Position numbers and translations under genes: made by a program
Origin: Actinophytocola gossypii
GTDB lineage: Bacteria > Actinomycetota > Actinomycetes > Mycobacteriales > Pseudonocardiaceae
Direction of reading: 5' to 3'
DNA: 64,000 nt
Assembly: GCF_025165815.1 (NCBI RefSeq)
Contig: NZ_JAFFZE010000006.1
Span: 434,001-498,000, forward strand
Notes under the pieces: model-generated
Database searches by the model: none
What the model was told of the DNA's origin: nothing
The model's input: only the letters and a program-made list of their open reading frames with translations
Shown: positions 47,123 through 50,345 of the stretch, piece after piece
Layout of the letters: the number at the start of each line of letters is the position of its first letter
Numbering within the stretch: position 1 is the stretch's first letter

Positions 47123-50100
47123 TCAACCCGGCCGCTGGGTCAGGTCGCCGATCGCGGCGACGATCGCCTGCACCTGGTTGCGGCCCGAGTCCTTGGCCAC
47201 GAACAGCGCGTCGTCGGCGGCCAGCAGCACGTCCTGCAGGTCCGGCCCGAACTCCGGGTACAGCGCCACCCCGATCGACACGCTCAGCCCGTCGACCACC
47301 TCGGCACCGTCCTCGGCCGAGACCGGGACGCGCAGCTCGCGGACCCGCTCGCAGATGCGCTCGCCGGTCGCGTGCAGCTCCTCCCGGGTGATCTCCGGGC
47401 ACAGCACAACGAACTCCTCGCCGCCCCAGCGCCCGACCACGTCGTACCGGCCGGCGCAGGCGGTCAGGGTGTCCGCGACGGCCTGCAGCACCCGGTCGCC
47501 GACCAGGTGCCCGTGCAGGTCGTTGACCGCCTTGAAGTGGTCGAGGTCGACCATCAGCACCCCGACCCGGGTCTCGTCCCGCGCGGCGCGCCGGACCTCG
47601 GCCGTCGCCAGGTTCGTCCAGGCCGTGGCGTTCGCCAGGCCGGTCTTCTGGTCGGTGGACGCGGCCTCCTCGAGCTGACGCAGCAGTACGCTGCGGTGCA
47701 GCACCAGCAGCGCCGGCACCATCATCAGCGACCAGCTGGGGTGCAGGGCGAGCAGGATCGCGTTGATCGCGCCGAGGCCGATCGTGCCGTACTCCAGCGC
47801 CGCCTCCTTGCCCGTGCCGAGCGCGCGCCGCAGGCTGAGCCGCTGTTCGTGCAGGGTGATGGCGGTGGCGACGAGACCCAGGTTCACCGCCGAGTACACC
47901 AGCACGGCGAGCACGATCGCCGCGAACACCTCCGGGCGGCCCCAGTCCGTCAGGTCGCCGGGCGCGAGCTGGTACCGGATCGCCGACGCGCTGTGCGCGG
48001 CCAGCACGACCGTGGACGCGGTGAACACCAGCCGGTAGGCGCGCACGCTGCGCACCCGGTACCAGCTGCGCCAGAACAGGTGCAGGTACAGCGCGCAGGT
48101 CACCACCGGGACCAGCGCCGTCGGCAGCACCAGGATGGCGGAGAACGTCCACACCGAGGTCAGGTTGACGTGCGGGGTGTCGTTGAACCGGCGGCGCACC
48201 CGTTCCACGTGCCTGGTCATCTCGCCCATGGCCACGCCGAGCCCGACGATGATCCCGAGCATGGCGAGGTCGGTGCCGTCGACCGAGGCCCGCAGGGCGT
48301 GGAACAGGGTCAGGCCGGCGGCCGCGGTCTCCACGACCAGCAGCAGCGCCAGCACCCGGGCCGGCTCACGCCACAGTGCCCAGCGTGCCGGTCCCCTGGA
48401 CCGGGTATCGGTCGGCGGGGATGCTGGGTGCGGCGGTCGGGGGACCTCACGCTGATCAGCATCCCCCATGCCGTGCTCGGCGGCCGTGCCGATGGAAGGA
48501 GGTGCCAGCGATGTCGCGTAGCTGGGACTGGTGAATCCCCGTACCCGTCCGTTGCCGTTCGTGCTGGGAGGAGGTGTGTCCGATGCGGAGCTGGGACTGG
48601 TGAGGTCCGGTAGCTGACCGTTCGCGCTGTCGTTCTCGATGGTGTTCTCGCTGGTGGGAGGTGTGCCCGATGTCGCGGAGCTGGGACTGGTGAACCCGGG
48701 AGTGTGTCCGTTGCCGTTCGTCCCGGAAGGAGGTGCGTCCGATGCGGAGCTGGGACTGGTGAGCCCGTGACCCCTGTGTCCGTTGCCGTTCACGAGGTCG
48801 TTCTCGACGGCGTTTCCGCTGGTGGGAGGTGTGCCCGATGTCGCGGAGCTGGGATTGGTGAACCCGGGAGTGTGCCCGTTGCCGTTCGTCCTGGAAGGAG
48901 GTGTGTCTGATGTCGCGAAGCTGGGACTGGTGATCGCCCCATGCTGATCAGCGTCGTCGGTCTCGCGCCCGCCCGGACGGATACGGGCGCGAAGCCACGA
49001 CGACCCCACGAGGCCAGTGAGCACGATGCCGGCCACGCCGCCGACGGCGACCGCGAGTGCCGAACTGGTCATGTCCGCGAGTATGCCCGCCCCGAGGATC
49101 GCGAGTCCCTGGGAGGACAGCACTCCGGCACCAACCAGCCCGGACGCGGCGCCCCGGTGGTGGTCGGGCACGGCGAGTACGAAGGCGGCCTGGGCGAGGA
49201 GCAGGTACCCCGTCGCGCAGGCGCCGCACAGCGCCCACAGCGGAACGACCAGCCACAGCGGTGGCCCGAACGCGCACAGGGCGAGCGGCACCCCCGCCGC
49301 GACCGCCAGCACGGTGGTCGCCCGCGCCCGCCGGTGGTCCGGAACGCGGGCGACGAGCCACGCCCCGACGATGTTGCCGACCGGCATGGCCGCCATCAGC
49401 AGGCCGACCGCGGCGACCGGGACGCCGAGGCCGGCCGCGTACGGGGCGGCGAGGCCCTCCGGCACCACGAACACGCCGATCAACCAGGACAGCGCCGTCA
49501 GGCCGCGCAGCCGGCGGTCGCGCCACACCAGGCGGGCGGCGCCGGTGGACCGCTCGGCCCGGTCCCGCCGGGCGGCCGGGCGGTCGCGCACCCCGGCCAT
49601 CAGCAGCACGGCGCTGAGCAGGAACGTCGCGGCGTTCAGGCCGAGCGCGACGTGCGGCTCGACCAGCGCGACCAGCACGCCGCCGAACAGGAACCCGACG
49701 GCCTGCACGGTCTGGTTGGTGACCGTGCGCAGGGCGAGCCCGGTGACGTACCGGTCGCCGGTCAGGATCGCCGGCAGCAGCGCCTGCTGCGCTGCCTTGA
49801 ACGGCGGCCCGACGAGCGTCAGCGGGAACACCAGGGCCATCAGCACCGGAAGCGGCAGCGCCGGGATCGCCATCAACGCGGCGAGCACCGCGCGGAGCAC
49901 GTCGACGGCCACCATCAGCTCGCGGCGGCGGTAGCGGTCGGCCAACCCGCCGAGCAGCACGCCGCCGAGGATCGCGGGAAGGAAGGTCAGCGCGTAGGTC
50001 AGCGCGGTGAGGGACGCGGACGAGGTCCTGGCGTACACCAGCACGGCGATGCCGACCCTGGCGAACTGGTCACCGAGGACGGACAGCAGCTCGGCGCCCC

Positions 50101-50155
50101 AGAGCGCGCGGAACTCGCGCACGGACAGCACGTCACGAAAACCCGCGCGACCCAT
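47123..50155 (-). CDS. MFS transporter fused in frame to a GGDEF diguanylate cyclase through a repeat linker
   Basis: 1010 residues from ATG 50155 with no stop. Residues 1-~405 form a 12-helix MFS exporter (SVREFRALWGAELLSVLGDQFARVG; motif A GGLADRYRRRELM). Residues ~420-565 are a Ser/Thr/Pro/Asn linker of six repeats of the (F/L)TSPS(S/Y/F)A type. Residues ~580-830 hold about six membrane helices; the C-terminal ~160 residues are a GGDEF domain with active-site WGGEEF and no clear RxxD inhibitory site. It makes cyclic di-GMP if active. A separate GGDEF gene could start at ATG 48469, giving 448 residues. Whether cells make one protein or two is open; the linker DNA also carries an array of plus-strand micro-ORFs. 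Confidence 0.75.
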   Translation of the reverse strand: MGRAGFRDVLSVREFRALWGAELLSVLGDQFARVGIAVLVYARTSSASLTALTYALTFLPAILGGVLLGGLADRYRRRELMVAVDVLRAVLAALMAIPALPLPVLMALVFPLTLVGPPFKAAQQALLPAILTGDRYVTGLALRTVTNQTVQAVGFLFGGVLVALVEPHVALGLNAATFLLSAVLLMAGVRDRPAARRDRAERSTGAARLVWRDRRLRGLTALSWLIGVFVVPEGLAAPYAAGLGVPVAAVGLLMAAMPVGNIVGAWLVARVPDHRRARATTVLAVAAGVPLALCAFGPPLWLVVPLWALCGACATGYLLLAQAAFVLAVPDHHRGAASGLVGAGVLSSQGLAILGAGILADMTSSALAVAVGGVAGIVLTGLVGSSWLRARIRPGGRETDDADQHGAITSPSFATSDTPPSRTNGNGHTPGFTNPSSATSGTPPTSGNAVENDLVNGNGHRGHGLTSPSSASDAPPSGTNGNGHTPGFTSPSSATSGTPPTSENTIENDSANGQLPDLTSPSSASDTPPPSTNGNGRVRGFTSPSYATSLAPPSIGTAAEHGMGDADQREVPRPPHPASPPTDTRSRGPARWALWREPARVLALLLVVETAAAGLTLFHALRASVDGTDLAMLGIIVGLGVAMGEMTRHVERVRRRFNDTPHVNLTSVWTFSAILVLPTALVPVVTCALYLHLFWRSWYRVRSVRAYRLVFTASTVVLAAHSASAIRYQLAPGDLTDWGRPEVFAAIVLAVLVYSAVNLGLVATAITLHEQRLSLRRALGTGKEAALEYGTIGLGAINAILLALHPSWSLMMVPALLVLHRSVLLRQLEEAASTDQKTGLANATAWTNLATAEVRRAARDETRVGVLMVDLDHFKAVNDLHGHLVGDRVLQAVADTLTACAGRYDVVGRWGGEEFVVLCPEITREELHATGERICERVRELRVPVSAEDGAEVVDGLSVSIGVALYPEFGPDLQDVLLAADDALFVAKDSGRNQVQAIVAAIGDLTQRPG
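48511..48933 (+). repeat. Array of six micro-ORFs (M(S)RSWDW) with Shine-Dalgarno sequences, antisense to the MFS-GGDEF linker
   Basis: Six units start at ATG 48511, 48583, 48670, 48742, 48838 and 48910. Each is a 6- or 7-codon frame with its own stop (TGA): MSRSWDW (units 1, 3, 5, 6) or MRSWDW (2, 4). Each follows GGAGGTG 7-8 bases upstream. Distances are 72, 87, 72, 96 and 72 bases. The only base changes inside the frames are CGG/CGT/CGA (all Arg) and GAC/GAT (both Asp), silent here but altering Ser/Tyr/Phe and Ser/Asn on the other strand. The array is bounded by GCTGATCAGC at 48451 and 48943. The repeat is certain; translation is unproven. Confidence 0.85.
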
Positions 50156-50345
50156 CGTCTGCCCTCGCTCGGTGAACACCTCCGGGCCGTACCCCGCGTG
50201 GCCCGTGGACCCGAGACTAGAGCGCTGCCGGAGGCGCACCACCCTCGTGGCCGGTGTCCACCCGAACGGCCCAATGTGCTCACGCAACGTAGTGGGCGGG
50301 GAATCCCGCCAGCGGTTGTCAGGTTTGCCCGGCAGGGTGGCCCGC

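Follow-up and report, generated by a model that had tools for sequence, protein, structure and literature searches.

Micro-ORFs opposite the linker of a transporter-cyclase gene

The window, by which we mean the whole 64,000-nucleotide stretch of Actinophytocola gossypii DNA analysed here (the genus belongs to Pseudonocardiaceae), contains on its minus strand a single open frame that joins an MFS transporter, a Ser/Thr/Pro linker, a hydrophobic membrane domain and a GGDEF diguanylate cyclase domain (Table 1). The transporter part is assigned by PF07690 (1.8e-25) and PF05977 (2.5e-12) and also matches the NCBIfam models TIGR00900 (H+ antiporter, 7.8e-40) and EntS (enterobactin transporter, 6.5e-18), both below cut-off. 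The catalytic part carries the GG(D/E)EF motif in the form RWGGEEF, matches PF00990 (E 3.3e-41) and has relatives in the PDB. For the membrane domain, hereafter the sensor, neither a Pfam match nor, by sequence, a relative of solved structure was found; in five proteins of this kind, hydropathy reveals 4-7 strong hydrophobic segments. By eye, a possible start of a GGDEF-only product is seen at 48469, without an obvious ribosome site.

On the plus strand, antisense to the linker between the MFS and the sensor-GGDEF parts (a position that the initial annotation did not notice), there are six micro-ORFs, spanning 48511-48933, that encode MSRSWDW or MRSWDW and each end in TGG GAY TGG TGA. The tandem array of SWDW-stop frames described in that annotation is real: in the 64 kb there are six matches to a pattern that combines ribosome site, start and ..DW-stop, against none in 100 dinucleotide shuffles, and AGCTGGGAYTGGTGA occurs at exactly six places in the 7.38-Mb genome, all of them in this array. 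GGAGGTG, ATG and TGA are indeed found in 6/6 copies, with a gap from GGAGGTG to ATG of exactly 6 nt in each and not, as initially given, of 7-8 bases. Codon reading on both strands likewise upholds the three reported substitutions (CGG>CGT in copy 1, CGG>CGA in copy 6 and GAC>GAT in copy 5), which are silent on the plus strand and replace residues on the minus strand, yielding TSPSY, TSPSF and TNPSS, respectively. Because a single frame stays open through the array on the opposite strand, all spacings between the copies are multiples of three; the common frame of the six starts, to which the initial annotation drew attention, therefore exists, but only as a local effect of the opposite-strand gene. 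Since the minus frame is open throughout, both strands of the locus read as coding.

The window neighbours with Pfam matches are luciferase-like, HxlR, YbaB and SDR proteins, and the next likely plus-strand gene after the array is the SDR gene near 50187, more than 1.2 kb away. No Rfam match at gathering scores was obtained in 47500-50300, and a promoter and terminator scan of 48150-49150, on the promoter side with a simple sigma-70 consensus only, gave no match.

Table 1. Coordinates of the features at the locus (positions in the window)
Feature	Position	Strand	Details
Single open frame: MFS transporter, Ser/Thr/Pro linker, membrane sensor, GGDEF	47123..50155	-	Pfam MFS_1 1.8e-25, GGDEF 3.3e-41
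MFS transporter part (MFS_1/MFS_3)	48970..50155	-	Pfam, NCBIfam; lower boundary approximate
Hydrophobic membrane (sensor) domain, about 225 residues	47720..48406	-	conserved in cassette-associated cyclases
GGDEF diguanylate cyclase domain	47174..47662	-	RWGGEEF motif; Pfam, PDB relatives
Micro-ORF 1	48498..48534	+	ribosome site GGAGGTG 48498-48504, ATG 48511, MSRSWDW, TGA
Micro-ORF 2	48570..48603	+	ribosome site, ATG 48583, MRSWDW, TGA
Micro-ORF 3	48657..48693	+	ribosome site, ATG 48670, MSRSWDW, TGA
Micro-ORF 4	48729..48762	+	ribosome site, ATG 48742, MRSWDW, TGA
Micro-ORF 5	48825..48861	+	ribosome site, ATG 48838, MSRSWDW (GAT), TGA
Micro-ORF 6	48897..48933	+	ribosome site, ATG 48910, MSRSWDW (CGA), TGA

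Orthologous arrays in Actinophytocola

The cyclase locus is present in 6/6 genomes of the genus in our set (the window's own and five others). In five of these orthologues, a single frame covers transporter and cyclase, and in G043 the two are overlapping ORFs; over the six main loci, 19 copy spacings are in phase and one, in G043, is not. In three species, those of the window, G042 and G044, the minus frame runs through the array without a stop. The G042 array has four copies, with the Arg codon AGG instead of CGG and with one MLRSWDW; the G044 array has, by reading, 11 copies that use ATG, GTG and TTG starts, include MASWDW and vary between AGC/AGT, CGG/CGT and GAC/GAT, with GGAGGTG altered in two of the 11. 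In three further congeners, an NKDW peptide with similar ribosome sites occupies the same antisense position (three copies of MNKDW in G043, one of them with a GTG start; MTNKDW and MMNKDW in G040 and G041).

The initial annotation had held that non-synonymous variation, or loss of starts and stops, in related arrays would speak against selection on the peptides. Variation of the former kind does occur (MASWDW, MLRSWDW and, in three congeners, NKDW), and the ribosome site is altered in 2/11 G044 copies, but starts and stops are kept in all copies read there and synonymous change dominates within arrays.

A strict pattern search in 390 genomes of the same family matched four, namely, the window's own, two congeners and G138, whose MIILSWDW is probably due to chance, with no sensor gene in the 10 kb examined. 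A scan of 84,980 genomes, a collection that may leave out the window's own record, returned five contigs, two from Actinophytocola (a MAG and A. xinjiangensis) and three from Kribbella. The Kribbella records, from three species, contain one micro-ORF each, MATDSWDW or MTSDSWDW; in L021 and L025, the gene that follows it closely on the same strand encodes a membrane protein with an HD_5 domain. This HD protein is also present in L023; its membrane part shows no significant similarity to the sensor profile, and we leave the Kribbella micro-ORF unassigned. As a class-wide motif, WDW-stop was tried and rejected: 394 genomes gave the window genome and three chance-like matches, against one in the control.

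A wider family of micro-ORF arrays

The WDW-stop motif is not general, and the wider family came to light only when the receptor orthologues were read. The window array does not stand alone, a point missed in the initial annotation; it is one instance of a family with many different peptides that extends over Pseudonocardiaceae, a second family of the class (working label f22) and scattered others; the carriers are soil bacteria related to antibiotic producers. Each array consists of 1-22 micro-ORFs, mostly of 5-8 codons and each with a ribosome site, and is located opposite the 5' end of a gene for a membrane diguanylate cyclase (sensor plus GGDEF), often beside an MFS gene.

Three approaches contributed to this picture. 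First, a pattern of ribosome site, start and ..GAYTGGTGA matched 71 places, some of them out of frame or due to chance, in 45 of the 390 family genomes, compared to seven places for the reversed control pattern. Clear RDW/KDW peptides among these are MRSRDW, MSRDW, MRNRDW, MSSRDW, MSDRDW together with MTDRDW, and MRGKDW. In the pattern-found set (19 loci plus L065, 20 altogether), micro-ORF and sensor-GGDEF gene occupy opposite strands in 19/20, the exception being G138. Eighteen of these loci have the micro-ORF 23-331 nt from the 5' end of the sensor. In L098, the distance is 1877 nt, a gap taken up by an array of 22 copies of the SRDW/SRAW type.

Second, we started from the receptor. Cyclase homologues in 41 genomes gave about 69-70 usable loci, which, like the class-wide loci below, are the best-scoring ones and not a random sample. 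In the stretch of 700 nt that precedes the membrane domain, there are 84 antisense micro-ORFs, spread over 36 loci; five of the 84 misfit the family, and locus L051=L151 appears twice in the set. Sense micro-ORFs number three in this stretch, whereas 700 nt of the gene body of the same loci contain none on either strand. The peptides at these loci include SSRDF (10 copies), RNRAW (8), SDRAW (4), [AST]DRDF (4), RDRGN (3), RTREH (3), RDRDL/M and RDKIW.

Third, a class-wide search of 384 genomes, 83 of which have a sensor homologue at E 1e-8, added f22, where peptides are present in 18/18 loci (L155-L172), in 17 by pattern and in L155 by eye; examples are MRDNTWT in eight copies, MRDTTWS in 13 (one of them MRDTTWR) and MRDNNWN in eight. 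Among the other class-wide loci, L153 is the window's own and L177 was left out of the peptide reading; L174 has two copies of MRSVQWA, a possible peptide is seen in L154, L173, L175, L176, L181 and L182, a weak candidate in L180 and none in L178 and L179. A search of plasmids yielded one Pseudonocardia GGDEF gene with no MFS gene annotated beside it.

The variation in copy number from 1 to 22 between loci could bring to mind mobile or selfish repeats of the REP/MITE kind with incidental ORFs. We give this scarcely any credence: outside the array, the window motif is absent from its genome, the spacers have diverged while the ORFs were kept, and 19/20 of the loci found by pattern alone adjoin a sensor-GGDEF gene.

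Selection on the peptides

The divergence of the spacers is apparent from arrays of three or more copies, in which between-copy identity is mostly 0.35-0.5 in the spacers, near background, 0.71-0.89 in the ribosome site and, after the start, 0.92-1.00 at codon positions 1-2 and 0.69-0.99 at third positions. Over the family, starts are ATG (130), GTG (52) and TTG (1) and stops are TGA (169), TAA (9) and TAG (5), counts that include a few artefact ORFs. Of 101 loci submitted to the codon test, 39 had two or more copies and were used; L169 and arrays without two comparable copies were left out. Of 73 distinct single-base changes within arrays, 60 are synonymous in the micro-ORF frame, against 13.6 expected (binomial p 1e-31 if the changes are taken as independent); in the other five frames, the synonymous counts are 9, 13, 14, 45 and 7. 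The comparison of synonymous and non-synonymous change on both strands, which the initial annotation had called for, thus agrees with its claim of selection on the plus-strand peptides, as do the interchangeable starts and stops and the mostly kept ribosome site. Translation of the micro-ORFs and selection at the peptide level are, in our judgement, strongly supported by these comparisons of sequence.

The same data bear on the notion that the repeats are nothing but the Ser/Thr/Pro linker of the minus-strand MFS-GGDEF protein, with the plus-strand ORFs as a by-product. This is very improbable, although the minus frame is open through the array, with spacings that are multiples of three, in three species, and the reverse frame that shares the wobble position has 45 synonymous changes against 18.8 expected, above chance; that frame is not the one of the linker, and the discordant changes favour the micro-ORF frame over it by 17 to 2. 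At the window locus, the changes that are silent on the plus strand are replacements on the minus strand. In other genera, some arrays are intergenic and the majority out of phase: apart from the Actinophytocola main locus, 62/112 spacings are not multiples of three and 26/32 arrays have at least one out-of-phase spacing, so that, in most arrays, the copies cannot share one frame on either strand. As the main selected product, the linker is ruled out by the family-wide codon test, in which the micro-ORF frame wins; the linker is probably translated as well.

Correspondence of peptides and putative receptors

The peptides are nearly constant within an array and differ between cassettes (RSWDW, NKDW, SRDF, RDNTWT and others). 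At 28 of 29 testable loci, some of which are pairs of sister-species orthologues, the nearest receptor in another genome is accompanied by a closer peptide than the average of the same-genome paralogues; the exception is MMDKDH in G043. Hence, peptide type follows receptor clade and not genome, and on the receptor tree SSRDF, RGQ[TN]W, RDKIW and RDRDM are common to different genomes by receptor clade. The rank Mantel correlation with the peptide is 0.41 for the sensor and 0.28 for GGDEF (56/64 loci usable, with L052, L120, L130, L143, L148, L163, L165 and L173 dropped). In partial tests with 500 permutations, the sensor given GGDEF retains 0.33 (p 0.002) and GGDEF given the sensor 0.08 (p 0.07). 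Co-inheritance of neighbouring genes explains part of the pairing signal; the excess of the sensor over the catalytic domain is the part that suggests contact between peptide and sensor. A faster rate of the sensor domain could account for some of the partial Mantel excess.

The transporter and other neighbours

MFS gene and peptide tend to occur together. When 71 entries were searched by tblastn with the window MFS protein, an MFS gene adjoined the cyclase together with a pattern-matched micro-ORF in 29, without one in seven, neither was found in 25, and a micro-ORF without MFS there in 10. Among these 10, one is a duplicate, L043 is chance-like, and L037 and L045 have the MFS gene elsewhere beside the cassette; little upstream sequence is available in L042, L124 and L059, and L113, with no GGDEF found, was dropped. 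The seven MFS entries without a pattern match, read by eye, contain clear peptides in five cases (among the peptides seen are seven copies of MNSNSW in L050, MAGRDQ in L126 and MRGQNW in L139) and doubtful small ORFs in two (L119 and L129). MFS is present at 15/18 f22 loci. In genus g4, an MFS homologue lies 2.5-3.5 kb away on the other strand in 5/8 loci and was not found in 3/8, and no MFS gene is present in the stretch examined at L036, L123, L132, L095, L096, L099 and L109. Therefore, the neighbouring MFS gene is not always part of the cassette.

A comparison of 27 neighbourhoods (those of 26 loci and of the window) gives a single protein cluster that is present in every one, and it consists of MFS and GGDEF merged by fusions, which is no proof of an MFS gene in each; the next most common cluster, these clusters being unannotated, occurs in 7/27. 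This matters for the possibility that the peptides serve as precursors from which a small natural product or an antimicrobial is made, minimal RiPP-like and MFS-exported, with the cyclase regulating production or immunity. The C-terminal aromatics of the micro-ORFs recall the 18-bp bytA gene of the biarylitides, a transporter is often present, forms in which the unit is repeated within one ORF would need cleavage, and at L123, a locus without MFS, a P450 gene (PF00067, 1.3e-71) lies 0.84 kb downstream on the micro-ORF strand, as a modified peptide would lead one to expect. Nevertheless, we regard such precursors as unlikely, given that no third gene family recurs, that no P450 was found among the window neighbours scanned and that the type of peptide is tied more closely to the sensor than to the catalytic domain.

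Several units in one ORF

Three loci depart from the rule of one peptide per ORF: in L127, one ORF contains SNNW four times; in L137, one ORF contains PTDW six times; and in L155, from f22, one ORF contains RDTNW twice, with MRDTNWVLRDTNWSW in several tandem copies. In all three, the start, stop and ribosome site of each unit are gone, and the short unit is kept. This is to be expected if the peptide is the product and is hard to fit with ribosome pausing alone. Accordingly, among the three options of the initial annotation (an array of tiny translated peptides, a translation-dependent regulatory RNA or a source of many copies of a signal peptide), the last fits best, and pausing or a leader-type regulatory RNA fits poorly, considering the repeats inside one ORF and the lack of a close downstream plus-strand gene.

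Action in cis, with translation of or stalling on an antisense RNA at W/D-W-stop controlling the cyclase or MFS mRNA and no peptide acting in trans, would account for the antisense position of the array at the 5' side of the cyclase in nearly all loci read, and the missing downstream gene in the window suits it as well. It seems to us quite improbable, because, apart from the multi-unit ORFs that keep the unit but not its start, stop and ribosome site, many C-termini are without Trp (SRDF, NRDN, RDRDL, TREH), so that there is no common stalling codon; the peptides differ between cassettes and follow the sensor; and neither a terminator-like site nor an Rfam match was found.

A putative signalling cassette

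Taken together, the anatomy of the micro-ORFs, the selection on the peptides, the association with MFS and sensor-GGDEF genes, the shared frame and the correspondence with receptor clades make it probable, as far as sequence can tell, that a multi-copy leaderless peptide, an MFS exporter and a membrane diguanylate cyclase constitute a signalling cassette; from these observations, we infer transcription, translation in vivo, export, binding and c-di-GMP output as follows. Each micro-ORF would be a separately translated gene for a short leaderless peptide, (fM)SRSWDW or (fM)RSWDW in the window, and array and cyclase gene would be transcribed divergently. Perhaps after trimming, the peptide would be exported by the MFS protein, which in the window is fused to the receptor, and would bind the membrane domain of the cyclase on the producing or neighbouring cells, changing c-di-GMP synthesis. 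A higher copy number could provide a higher peptide dose, and a separate peptide for each cassette would allow several cassettes side by side in one genome. It counts against the proposed export that, to our knowledge, MFS proteins are not usual peptide exporters. On the signalling reading, exporter and receptor of Actinophytocola would be fused in one protein, with the signal genes on the strand opposite its linker, and tandem genes of 18-27 bases opposite a coding linker are an unusual gene architecture in themselves.

We lean, by a small measure, to the broader view that these cassettes represent a widespread, so far undescribed class of actinobacterial signalling, in which leaderless peptides of 5-8 residues, dedicated MFS export and a cognate diguanylate cyclase would convert an extracellular peptide into c-di-GMP, with several orthogonal channels per genome. 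Searches of an open-licence library, in which most subscription papers are missing, listed no description of the micro-ORF family, and the class may have been overlooked because gene finders would probably miss genes of this length. In antibiotic-producing actinomycetes studied for c-di-GMP, this nucleotide controls development, and the ligands of actinomycete membrane diguanylate cyclases are, as far as we know, mostly unknown. If the proposal is correct, the cassettes would amount to a new system of signalling in which peptides and receptors come already paired and each cassette names a candidate ligand of its cyclase.

Comparison with known systems

Leader-peptide attenuators also combine a short ORF containing Trp codons with a strong ribosome site. 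The micro-ORFs are not attenuators of the standard kind: no gene follows closely on the same strand in the window (the distance exceeds 1.2 kb), many variants are without Trp and some ORFs contain several units; in addition, no terminator-like site was found around the window array. The Rgg-SHP systems involve a longer propeptide and a cytosolic receptor. In streptococci, their short peptide pheromone is exported by the transporter PptAB (PMC5167397). A short peptide and a transporter are common to both systems, but the exporter is of the ABC type in Rgg-SHP/PptAB. The biarylitides of actinomycetes are similar in the extremely small size of the gene, the 18 bp pentapeptide gene bytA, which works with the P450 bytO; in the accessible portion of that report, no cyclase or array is mentioned (PMC8549240). 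As a family, and leaving apart the P450 of L123, the micro-ORFs are not of the biarylitide RiPP type.

The closest likeness is to the LCP/SIP-RopB system of Firmicutes, where an ORF of 24 bp and 8 aa encodes the peptide itself, this ultra-small ORF lies beside the receptor gene and, in the described cases, divergent from it, and distinct peptide codes co-vary with their receptors (PMC10518010). The family described here has the same leaderless ultra-small ORFs, mostly of 5-8 codons (longer in L127, L137, L155 and perhaps L129), and the same adjacent, divergent receptor gene (84 antisense versus three sense micro-ORFs, and 19/20 pattern loci). In contrast, LCP/SIP-RopB uses one hydrophobic peptide and a cytosolic regulator of the RRNPPA family and does not involve the canonical export machinery (PMC10518010), whereas the cassettes have tandem arrays, polar peptides, a membrane diguanylate cyclase and often an MFS gene, sometimes fused, and belong to Actinobacteria; among the window neighbours scanned, there is no RRNPPA-type cytosolic regulator, the neighbour being the MFS and membrane GGDEF protein. 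Judged by this analogy, the cassette would appear to work most like the LCP systems of Firmicutes without being a member of them, given its different class of receptor and its polar, multi-copy peptides.

Borders of the window's array, and micro-ORFs and cassettes at other loci

In the window, the array of six micro-ORFs is bracketed by a pair of 14-nt exact inverted repeats containing GCTGATCAGC (see the table), and inspection by eye shows recurring TGATCA-type motifs close to the array borders of congeners. These border elements possibly represent an operator or, alternatively, the border of a duplication. The same genome carries two additional cassettes that combine an MFS transporter gene with a cyclase gene, one with a single micro-ORF and the other with a doubtful short ORF.

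Coordinates of the features discussed
Feature	Location	Remarks
Inverted-repeat pair, 14 nt	window 48449-48462 and 48941-48954	exact; contains GCTGATCAGC
Cassette L150	G000:C11:77487-78716	window's genome; single micro-ORF, MRDRDM
Cassette L129	G000:C49:28803-30050	window's genome; doubtful 30-residue ORF ending in RPHEWRSGR
Kribbella micro-ORF	L021 6084-6123	MATDSWDW or MTSDSWDW; GGAGGTG present
Kribbella micro-ORF	L023 1046-1085	MATDSWDW or MTSDSWDW; GGAGGTG present
Kribbella micro-ORF	L025 4843-4883	MATDSWDW or MTSDSWDW; GGAGGTG present
MIILSWDW ORF	L013 1501-1538 (G138)	lone; good ribosome site
Cytochrome P450 gene	L123 65-1483 (G226:C3)	
MRGQTW micro-ORF	L123 2327-2361 (G226:C3)	

Each of three Kribbella loci has one micro-ORF ending in SWDW, which, in L021 and L025, is directly followed on the same strand by a gene for an HD_5-domain membrane protein. 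The membrane part of this protein has no significant similarity to the profile of the cyclase sensor domain, and the Kribbella micro-ORF may either be coincidental or represent a related peptide leader. The lone MIILSWDW ORF sits between genes that, as labeled by eye, are acyl-CoA ligase-like and HAF-repeat-like, the latter with no Pfam match; no cyclase gene was found in the stretch fetched around this ORF.

Variant forms of the array

The MRGQTW micro-ORF of L123 belongs to a cassette with no MFS gene in the fetched stretch; a cytochrome P450 gene lies 0.84 kb downstream of this micro-ORF, on the same strand. At two other loci, the position of the array is occupied by a precursor ORF with four SNNW units (L127) or six PTDW units (L137), and such multi-unit precursors would require processing. 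In the longest array seen (L098, G015:C30), 22 SRDW/SRAW-type micro-ORFs follow one another at intervals of mostly 60-75 nt, with a cyclase ORF on the opposite strand. In two loci of genus g4 (L095 and L096), the N-terminal parts of the cyclase ORFs contain TSRGSS-type repeats which, judged by eye, are the complement of SRDW micro-ORFs; thus, these arrays, too, appear to lie antisense within open frames.
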